Source: Natrinema thermotolerans DSM 11552 (GTDB lineage Archaea > Halobacteriota > Halobacteria > Halobacteriales > Natrialbaceae). From it: a DNA stretch of 34,099 bases. Position numbers and translations under genes: made by a program. Shown here piece by piece: positions 8,144 through 10,897 of the stretch (positions are counted from its first letter, which is position 1; every line of letters starts with the position of its first letter). The DNA is taken from the NCBI GenBank assembly GCA_000337115.1, contig AOIR01000067.1, positions 1-34,099 of the forward strand, read 5' to 3'. The notes below the pieces were generated by a model. It had not been told where the DNA came from. It saw only the letters and a list, made by a program, of their open reading frames with translations, and did no database searches.

Positions 8144-10897
8144 TCACGCCTGCAGGCGCTGTAAGCGCTCGAGCGAGTCCGCGCCCTCGGGGTTCTTGTC
8201 GTACCGCACGCCCAGAAACCGCGGGAACCGAAGCGCATAGCCCGACGAGTAGGTCGGCGAGGACTGGATCTCCTCGTAGCCGACCTCGAAGACGACCGCG
8301 GGCTCGAGGTCGACCGCCTGGCCGTCCTCCATCGCGATGTGGGGCTCGAGCAACTCGGTCAGCTCTTCTAATTTCTCGTCGGTGATCCCGGTCGCGACTT
8401 TGCCGACGGTCTCGAACTCGTCGCCCGCGCGCACGGAGAGTTCGAAGGTCCCGAGGAAGGTCGCGCGGCGGCCCTCGCCCCACTCGGCACCGGTGACGAC
8501 GCAGTCGATCGTCTCCACGTCCGGCTTGCGCTTGCGCCAGTGTTTCCCGCGTCGGCCCGGCGAGTAGGTCGACTCGGGATCCTTGAGCATGATCCCCTCG
8601 TGGCCGGCCTCGAGGGCCGCGGCGTCGATCGACTCGATCTCGTCGGGATCGTCGGTCAGTCGGAGCAGGGAGAGGCCCTCGATGTCGGAGTCTGCCGTCC
8701 CATCGGTGCCGTCGTCGCCGTCGGAATCGGCATCCGCGAGTACCGACCGGAGCCGGTCGTGGCGGGTCGTCAGCGGGTCCTCGAGCAGGTCCTCGCCGCC
8801 GGCGTGTAAGCAATCGAAAAAGACCGGGCGCACCGAGACGTCCTCGCGGGCCTTCGCGACGTCGTGTTTCCGGCGGAACCGCTTGAGGACTTCCTGGAAC
8901 GGCAGCGGTGAGCCGTCGTCGTCGACGGCGACGACCTCGCCGTCGAGGATGGTGGGCTCCGCGAGGTGTTCCTCACCGAACTCGACGACCTCGGGGAGGG
9001 CGTCGGTGACCTCCTCCATGTTTCTCGAGAAGACGCTGACCGACTCACCATCGAAATGGAGTTGACAGTTGTGTACCGCGGTGAGCGGAACGCAGTAACT
9101 TTCGTCTTCTGCGACCTGTAGATTGTATACCTTTTGGCGCGGGTCTACCTCTCGTGGGTTCTTTCGAGAGAGTTCCGTTTTAGAGAGTATATCGACGACA
9201 ACGAAGTCGTCCTCGATTCGTGCATACCGGTCGGACTGAGATATCGTCAGTCGATAGTACGTTTTGTCGTTCTTTCTCACTCGTCGAATTCCGAAAATTC
9301 GTCCGAACGTCAATCCGATAAGCTGTATTACGGACGCGAGATATCGTTCCTTCGTGGTGATATACCGTCTCTCTTGTGGGTCTTCGTATCCGTCTGCTTC
9401 CTCCCAACCCGTGAGAAATGCATCAAACTGGTCCTCCGACAAGTTCCAAAACCAGTCAGGTACTGTTTTGTCTTTCCATCCATCTTGGTCCTTTTTTCTG
9501 AAATTTCCGCATAGCCATTTGAATAGTGGACCGTCTGTCCAATATATATCGGTCGCACTACCGTGGTCATAGGTGTGGACGTTCTCAGGAGAGATTCCGA
9601 GAGCATCGACGACAATCGACCGGTATTCTTCTAATAAATCCGCATCGGTGTTACTAAACATCAATCCGATTCGGTTGTTGCCGTTGTAGTCGTTCGTAGA
9701 GCCGTCGCCGACCCAATAGCCGAGAAACCGGTAGAAAGACGGCGATAGTTCGAACTCCTTCGTGTAATTATCGATGGTACTGAGTTGCAGGCGGTCGGGA
9801 GGTGTCAAAGTAGGACGGATGGTAGGGACCGGAAAGGCGAGAGTCTCATTCTCGGAAACATCTTCGATCGGAACCCACTCGGTATCACCTGAATCATAAA
9901 CCAACATCTCGTGTCCCTCTGTTATTTTAAACTCTGTACCGAAATACGTTGAGAACTCAAACACTTTCTCCTTGCTATCTATGCTTCGTCTATTTTTTGC
10001 TACGACCTCCCTGAAGCGACCCTCGTGTGTGAGAACGCTGTCCCCGACTTCGACGTCACGAACGGCGATTTGTCCTCGTTCGCGAGTGTAAATCGGCGTA
10101 TACCCAGAAATGCAACGAGCGCCGTCGTATTTCCACTCCACCGCCGCCTCGTCCCACGCCTCGAGGGCGTCGGTCACGGTCCCGGCCTGTGCGAGCATCG
10201 CCTGGACGGGGCGGCCGACCGCGAGGTCCATGGCGTCGAGCCCCGCGACGCCCTCGTCTCGTGCGATTCGGGCGACCCGTCCGTAGTCGTTCGACACCTG
10301 CAGGGCGCGTTCGACGCGGTCCTCGGGGACCTCGAAGGCCGCGGCGATGGCGTCTCGGACCGTCCCCTCGCCGACGCCGATGCGCATCTCCGAGAGGACG
10401 AGCCGAGCGAGATATCGGGCTTCCTCGCTCGAGGCGCGGTTGAACAGGCCAAAGAGGAGGTCGACCTTCCGGTCGTGGCTGCCCGATCCCTCGGCGGCGG
10501 CCAGTTCGGTGAGAGTATCGGCGACCTCGCGGACGGTGAGATCGTCACTGGTGCCGCCGGCGTCGTCCGTGAACGCACCGAGTCCCTGCTGACCGCCGAA
10601 CTCGTAGCTGGCCGCCACGTCGCCGATCTCGCCCACGTCGGCGAGTCGCTCCTCGACGTCGTCGCCGCTGACGTTTTGCCCCGCTGCGCGGGCGATCGCC
10701 TCGTAACACGCGCTCGGGCCGATATCGAGCGTCGTCGAGTCCCAGGCGGGGAATACCCGCCCCTGGACGAACCGCGCGACGACCTCGATCTCGTCGTCGG
10801 CCGCCGCGAGCAGGTCCCTGACGTGGGCGACGATCTCGAGGTCGGCGGGTTCGGCGTCGATCGTCCCGGCACGGTCGGCGAACGTGGCGAACTCCAT
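8144..10897 (-). CDS. lig: ATP-dependent DNA ligase interrupted by an intein
   Basis: The 917-residue precursor contains a 568-residue replicative-type ligase plus an intein. N-extein: DNA-binding domain, then motif I EWKYDGAR with the adenylated lysine at 256 (residues 1-261). C-extein: CQLHFDGESVSVFSRN, motif III LDGE at 651-654, motif IV HEGIMLKD at 766-773, motif V KHWRKRKP at 785-792, then the OB-fold. Splicing would restore KYDGAR-CQLHFDG. The enzyme seals nicks during replication and repair. A halophilic Asp-rich insertion lies near residues 721-740. The start is supported by a TTTTACT box at about 10922-10928. It is divergent from the GCS-like gene (132-base gap). Confidence 0.96.
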   Translation of the reverse strand: MEFATFADRAGTIDAEPADLEIVAHVRDLLAAADDEIEVVARFVQGRVFPAWDSTTLDIGPSACYEAIARAAGQNVSGDDVEERLADVGEIGDVAASYEFGGQQGLGAFTDDAGGTSDDLTVREVADTLTELAAAEGSGSHDRKVDLLFGLFNRASSEEARYLARLVLSEMRIGVGEGTVRDAIAAAFEVPEDRVERALQVSNDYGRVARIARDEGVAGLDAMDLAVGRPVQAMLAQAGTVTDALEAWDEAAVEWKYDGARCISGYTPIYTRERGQIAVRDVEVGDSVLTHEGRFREVVAKNRRSIDSKEKVFEFSTYFGTEFKITEGHEMLVYDSGDTEWVPIEDVSENETLAFPVPTIRPTLTPPDRLQLSTIDNYTKEFELSPSFYRFLGYWVGDGSTNDYNGNNRIGLMFSNTDADLLEEYRSIVVDALGISPENVHTYDHGSATDIYWTDGPLFKWLCGNFRKKDQDGWKDKTVPDWFWNLSEDQFDAFLTGWEEADGYEDPQERRYITTKERYLASVIQLIGLTFGRIFGIRRVRKNDKTYYRLTISQSDRYARIEDDFVVVDILSKTELSRKNPREVDPRQKVYNLQVAEDESYCVPLTAVHNCQLHFDGESVSVFSRNMEEVTDALPEVVEFGEEHLAEPTILDGEVVAVDDDGSPLPFQEVLKRFRRKHDVAKAREDVSVRPVFFDCLHAGGEDLLEDPLTTRHDRLRSVLADADSDGDDGTDGTADSDIEGLSLLRLTDDPDEIESIDAAALEAGHEGIMLKDPESTYSPGRRGKHWRKRKPDVETIDCVVTGAEWGEGRRATFLGTFELSVRAGDEFETVGKVATGITDEKLEELTELLEPHIAMEDGQAVDLEPAVVFEVGYEEIQSSPTYSSGYALRFPRFLGVRYDKNPEGADSLERLQRLQA
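9068..10114 (-). mobile_element. Intein with LAGLIDADG homing endonuclease domain
   Basis: Precursor residues 262-610 (349 residues) form an intein. Block A begins Cys262 (CISGYTPIYT). Block B holds Thr326 and His329 in TEGH. The endonuclease blocks are FLGYWVGDG (391-399) and FLTGWEEADGY (494-504). The C-terminal splicing region has VYNLQVAEDESY, then LTAVHN ending in His609-Asn610, with Cys611 as the +1 nucleophile. All splice residues look intact. Both LAGLIDADG motifs keep acidic residues, so the endonuclease may be active. Base composition is visibly richer in A/T than the flanking ligase and codon choice is less GC-biased, pointing to horizontal arrival. The site is only five residues behind the catalytic lysine. 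Confidence 0.95.

Follow-up and report, generated by a model that had tools for sequence, protein, structure and literature searches.

The ATP-dependent DNA ligase LigA of Natrinema thermotolerans DSM 11552 is best explained as the host of a complete class-1 intein that contains a LAGLIDADG homing endonuclease with two motifs, which takes ligase motif I (KxDGxR) as its site, would have spread horizontally and would have been installed together with a co-converted +1 codon; we put the probability of this explanation as a whole at about 0.85. Translation of the minus strand of the window (the whole stretch of DNA analysed, 34,099 nucleotides of contig AOIR01000067.1) from 10897 to 8144 gave a 917-aa ATP-dependent DNA ligase precursor containing the intein (Table 1). 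The insertion lies directly behind KYDGAR, with R/C and HN/C as its junctions, and thereby cuts Lys256 of motif I off from the remaining catalytic domain. The predicted spliced ligase comprises 568 aa and reads KYDGARC at the junction (...YDGAR/CQLHFDGESVSVFSR). The exteins exceed the family cut-off of haloarchaeal LigA (NF041331, LigA_Halo, NCBIfam), scoring 952 bits against a cut-off of 830 in a match that falls into two pieces on either side of the insert. G+C content is 0.49 (GC3 0.54) in the intein versus 0.69 (GC3 0.88) in the ligase parts, and on the basis of this contrast the intein is no random coding drift. A preceding sequence-only reading had placed a 349-aa intein (C262-N610, VHN/C junction, 568-aa product) in ligase motif I, five residues behind Lys256; all of its coordinates proved exact on retranslation, and the placement was confirmed by translation and domain matches.

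Table 1. Features of the intein-bearing ligase gene, with coordinates as positions in the window.
Feature	Position	Strand	Remarks
LigA (LigA_Halo) precursor gene, 917 codons	8144..10897	(-)	ORF; NF041331 952 bits, over cut-off
N-extein, 261 aa, C-terminal end ...EWKYDGAR	10115..10897	(-)	
Lys256 codon, AMP-accepting lysine, motif I (KYDG)	10130..10132	(-)	aligned to motif I of solved archaeal ligases 3gde, 9df9
Intein, 349 aa (precursor 262-610), Hint splicing domain and two-motif LAGLIDADG homing endonuclease	9068..10114	(-)	
Cys1 of intein (Cys262 of precursor), first splicing nucleophile	10112..10114	(-)	invariant 18/18
Block B, FKITEGHEML (T65, H68)	9902..9931	(-)	H 18/18, T/S 18/18
First LAGLIDADG motif, FLGYWVGDG (D137)	9701..9727	(-)	D 18/18
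Second LAGLIDADG motif, FLTGWEEADG (D241)	9389..9418	(-)	D 18/18; LAGLIDADG_3
His609-Asn610, penultimate and terminal intein residues	9068..9073	(-)	H 18/18, N 18/18
+1 Cys611, first C-extein residue	9065..9067	(-)	V or I where haloarchaeal LigA is uninvaded
Putative co-conversion tract, 12 codons, CQLHFDGESVSV, starting with +1 Cys	9032..9067	(-)	unlike every uninvaded Natrinema LigA
C-extein, 307 aa and stop (precursor 611-917)	8144..9067	(-)	

The window intein could be aligned end to end with 17 other inteins, and across these 18 homologues Cys1, His68, Asp137, Lys216, Asp241, His348 and Asn349 are invariant. The earlier view that the splice residues (Cys262, His609-Asn610, Cys611) and both LAGLIDADG blocks are intact was thus borne out, the intein residues and both aspartates being conserved in all 18 sequences. 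The sequence and fold features of a class-1 intein were found: a cysteine at position 1, the block B motif TxxH as TEGH at intein residues 65-68, a C-terminal His-Asn followed by the extein cysteine (VHN/C), and a Hint (horseshoe) fold according to an AlphaFold model and its Foldseek matches to intein structures. Likewise, the two motifs with the catalytic acidic residues D137 and D241 identify a LAGLIDADG homing endonuclease. Block F has an asparagine (N331) where many inteins have aspartate; since the same residue occurs in 16 of the 18 sequences of the allele, it is, judged by this alignment, the norm of the ligase allele and the sole textbook departure of the window intein. Profile searches returned 46 bits for LAGLIDADG_3 (Pfam cut-off 22.5), while the matches to Intein_splicing and Hint_2 were significant, yet under their Pfam cut-offs. 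The AlphaFold model, built from 11 homologues, reached a mean pLDDT of 86.6 and matched the TliVMA intein best (7qsu, E 7.7e-17), followed by PI-SceI and PI-PfuI, with I-DmoI as the nearest solved fold for the endonuclease part. The window intein thus appears structurally complete, from which we infer splicing and homing activity.

Homologues were collected by scanning one genome per species with a degenerate DNA pattern that describes the left intein junction; a match requires Gly at position 4 in addition to Cys1 and a hydrophobic residue, so that same-site inteins of another kind escape it. The haloarchaeal survey covered 391 species, 341 of them with a LigA match; only the window genome carries the intein, and the ligase site is empty in the remaining 28 Natrinema species, in line with the earlier remark that this is not a common haloarchaeal insertion site. 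Outside Natrinema, same-site inteins were recovered from 15 further fully read loci and one virus. By the left-junction pattern, the site is occupied in Pacearchaeota, Nanoarchaeota, Diapherotrites, Woesearchaeota, Forterrea, Altiarchaeales and Micrarchaeota, in the metagenome-assembled genome (MAG) of Halobacteriales archaeon SW_5_70_135, and in bacterial MAGs assigned to Aminicenantes, Roizmanbacteria and one unnamed lineage, assignments that may be wrong for single MAGs. The viral intein (contig L136), 28% identical to the window intein and inserted at the same ligase point, begins CCGA; it therefore falls outside the pattern and was detected by a profile search. Orthologous inteins at this site thus extend, as far as the alignments indicate, beyond haloarchaea to DPANN archaea and bacterial MAGs and, more distantly, to a virus. 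Everywhere the allele is sporadic, at 2/156 genomes in one DPANN phylum, 1/147 in a second (by ligase frame length) and 1/361 in the order that includes SW_5_70_135. Roughly half of the sequences matching the pattern proved to be ordinary LigD-type ligases of bacteria (KFDGYRC) without intein, and intein-like split LigA matches in a few other haloarchaea were rejected, their gaps measuring at most about 290 bases. A search of genome contigs with a single intein protein gave no match, and no report of ligase inteins in DPANN was found in the open-licence literature.

Two of the carrier loci have further features. On the viral contig (IMGVR_UViG_3300003891_000030, L136 667-7032) a single open frame, at least 2122 aa long, combines a nucleotidyltransferase-like region with an ATP-dependent ligase domain and a D12 adenine methyltransferase; apparently three inteins lie in this frame, including the one at ligase motif I. 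The intein-bearing ligase of SW_5_70_135 (L183 2429-7694) lies near an EstD-like esterase and a gene resembling a ligase-associated DNA damage response exonuclease; this ligase possibly serves in repair.

Over their whole length, the same-site inteins are 40-60% identical to the window intein (virus 28%), whereas other haloarchaeal inteins reach about 20-31% over part of the length only. In the intein tree, a branch with support of 95/94 separates all 17 ligase-site inteins, as a clade, from other haloarchaeal and viral inteins; the sequence nearest to the window intein is that of the SW_5_70_135 MAG (60% identity, support 99/96). The extein tree places the window LigA within Natrinema and the ligases of the other carriers elsewhere, and mapping the invaded state onto the ligase tree requires eight changes, at least six of them on supported (starred) branches. 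Taken together, these placements and the eight changes indicate that the intein moved between quite different ligases, and we propose that the allele spread horizontally among haloarchaea, DPANN archaea and some bacterial genomes.

By the usual description an intein site lies before a host Cys, Ser or Thr (PMC3359363), and a nucleophile at +1 of an invaded gene is expected because splicing requires one; the information therefore lies solely in its absence from uninvaded genes. The +1 residue is V (43) or I (21) in 64 uninvaded haloarchaeal LigA and V (9), M (9), I (5), L (2) or A (1) in 26 uninvaded DPANN ligases, so that none of these 90 ligases has a splicing nucleophile after KYDGxR, and an empty K[YF]DGARCQxH site occurs in none of the 391 genomes of the haloarchaeal class. 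Invaded ligases, the virus counted, have Cys in 17 of 18 cases; the lone exception, a Nanoarchaeota copy (L182, G402 C8), has Ser after the intein. Intein and +1 residue change together in 6/6 phylogenetically independent pairs (p 0.03), a set that was extracted with a Cys requirement and leaves the Ser case out. The sequence-only reading treated the motif-I site as one of the most conserved in ligases; the +1 residue directly behind it is, however, not native. As uninvaded ligases are without the nucleophile, it must have come with the intein, which appears to import its own +1 residue via co-conversion during homing, as described for the haloarchaeal MCM-d intein.

The DNA behind the intein points the same way. 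At the position of the 12-codon tract, uninvaded Natrinema LigA proteins read I/V-QLH[HY], together with another loop that is mostly longer. The altered stretch begins exactly at the junction and stops after 12 codons, just past which the DNA is Natrinema-like again and equals locus L072 over ten codons. This pattern fits co-conversion of a short flank during homing.

The source genome (3.9 Mb in 68 contigs) also encodes the NAD-dependent ligase LigN, a 735-aa frame with the full expected domain set, the search for which the sequence-only reading had recommended. In Haloferax volcanii LigA and LigN are redundant, either being deletable but not both, and cells without ligA are more sensitive to UV (PMC7776575). 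Given LigN and this redundancy, splicing is probably dispensable for host viability, which weakens the earlier statement that the host would need splicing for a replicative ligase unless it had a second one. The first 24 kb of the window are 98.1% identical over 95% to a 987-kb replicon of N. thermotolerans A29 (CP031304.1, with locus L040), which carries the same intein at the same ligase site, with the frame open in both strains. The annotated ATP-dependent DNA ligase of A29 (L040 6133-7974, CP031304.1 639177-641018) begins inside the intein, while its open frame extends back to the true start at L040 5218; the annotation thus drops the N-extein with the catalytic lysine, and the intein is hidden in public annotation. 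Between the two invaded strains dN/dS is 0.20 for the N-extein, 0.22 for the C-extein and, based on few changes, 0.50 for the intein, compared with 0.21-0.25 for the window ligase against uninvaded neighbours. These similar values fit a ligase under normal constraint, and the window LigA is hence probably spliced and working. The C-extein differs by 5.5% between the invaded strains (window 8166-9067 against L040 7048-7949), the N-extein and intein by about 1%, suggesting that the 3' half of ligA recombined once the intein was in place.

Several other explanations were weighed against this reading. Active-site insertions of inteins are common in general (PMC3359363, PMC5874633) and the viral intein is just 28% identical, so the DPANN and bacterial matches might reflect unrelated inteins that inserted convergently at a favoured site; we regard this as highly improbable, because the cellular copies are 40-60% identical over their full length and group in a single supported clade that excludes other inteins of haloarchaea and viruses, and the similarity to other haloarchaeal inteins is low and partial. 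That the intein reached haloarchaea directly from a DPANN symbiont, and not via other haloarchaea or viruses, is suggested by the predominance of DPANN archaea among the carriers found (in a sampling without Nanohaloarchaeota) but seems fairly unlikely, as the nearest relative resides in a Halobacteriales MAG and not in DPANN, whose inteins at 40-50% identity are too distant for recent direct transfer.

It is also conceivable, if unlikely, that mutation had already produced the +1 Cys and the short loop behind it in the Natrinema lineage when the intein arrived, making co-conversion unnecessary. The natural Cys of bacterial LigD-type ligases (KFDGYRC) shows that the position tolerates this residue, a search for a donor of the 12-codon tract found none, and with only two invaded haloarchaeal LigA_Halo genes known here the tract could have arisen in place without one. 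A change from V or I to Cys, however, takes two base changes, Cys is found in no uninvaded haloarchaeal LigA examined, Cys or Ser accompanies the intein in unrelated lineages too, and prior mutation would have to account for an altered stretch bounded so exactly by the junction and the twelfth codon. A structurally intact intein that splices very slowly or not at all, leaving LigN to do all ligation while ligA decays, would agree with the presence of LigN, with the dispensability of LigA in H. volcanii (PMC7776575) and with the 16 amino-acid-changing C-extein codons between the two invaded strains; frames open in both strains, the intact splice residues and a dN/dS of about 0.2 in both extein halves, equal to that of uninvaded neighbours, nevertheless make it quite improbable.

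For an active, horizontally spread intein we propose the following course. The precursor would have no ligase activity, since the intein interrupts motif I just after its lysine. Acyl shifts would be performed by Cys1 and the +1 Cys, Asn would cyclise, and splicing would release the 568-aa ligase plus free endonuclease. The latter would cut the well conserved motif-I DNA of uninvaded ligA, a cleavage that we infer from the sporadic spread and the foreign tract, whereupon repair from the invaded copy would install the intein with a short flank. With V, I, M, L or A at the uninvaded +1 position, splicing could occur only if the converted flank brought in a +1 codon for Cys (or Ser), and LigN would keep the invasion cheap for the host. 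We somewhat favour the broader view of a cross-domain intein allele that travels as a transferable unit including its +1 splice residue, each ligase invasion rewriting the hydrophobic position by motif I to Cys or Ser. If so, a lost intein would leave a Cys scar, and past invasions would be readable in present uninvaded ligases.

These results give a firm footing to a little-described intein site, namely the catalytic motif of ATP-dependent DNA ligases. Being common to haloarchaea, DPANN archaea, some bacterial genomes and a virus, the site may serve as a marker of gene flow between these groups, and with a nucleophile in 0/90 uninvaded ligases it offers a clear test case against the usual rule of insertion before an existing Cys, Ser or Thr. 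As the ligase is probably deletable in haloarchaea with LigN, splicing and homing at an active site become open to genetic study.

Regarding known systems, TliVMA (7qsu, 7qss), PI-SceI (1vde) and PI-PfuI (1dq3) share the Hint domain with inserted LAGLIDADG endonuclease, but belong to other host proteins and are only 10-18% identical (TM-score about 0.45-0.62). The SW_5_70_135 ligase intein (L103/L183) agrees in site, key residues and +1 Cys, although its host ligase scores only 485 bits for LigA_Halo (cut-off 830). Also close is the 'ligase' allele of Soucy et al. 2014 (PMC4071816), an intein in ATP-dependent DNA ligase I of a halobacterium listed in 1/118 halobacteria, 0 bacteria and 0 other Euryarchaeota. 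The window intein is very probably this allele, and its carrier was perhaps the same species, since Haloterrigena (now Natrinema) thermotolerans was part of the survey. A ligase intein of haloarchaea was therefore already on record, so that novelty does not lie in the extein; the main text of that survey names neither insertion point nor carrier, and its relevant passages do not discuss the +1 residue. The search for prior descriptions that the sequence-only reading had advised thus retrieved the 2014 allele but, as far as searched, no earlier description for ligases of the site-level picture or of the imported +1 residue. New here, on the basis of the sequences compared, are orthologous inteins at one ligase site across DPANN archaea, a MAG of Halobacteriales and bacterial MAGs and, more distantly, in a virus, as opposed to the haloarchaeal range given in 2014. 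The MCM-d intein of Haloferacales (PMC10643990) likewise has a non-nucleophilic uninvaded +1 residue (Pro), Ser in invaded genes and a requirement for flank co-conversion; it differs in host gene and intein, and was studied within one order, where the uninvaded residue is mainly Pro, whereas the ligase site contrasts V/I/M/L/A with Cys/Ser across phyla. The principle of an imported +1 residue is thus known from MCM-d, and the ligase site represents a second case with a wider host range.
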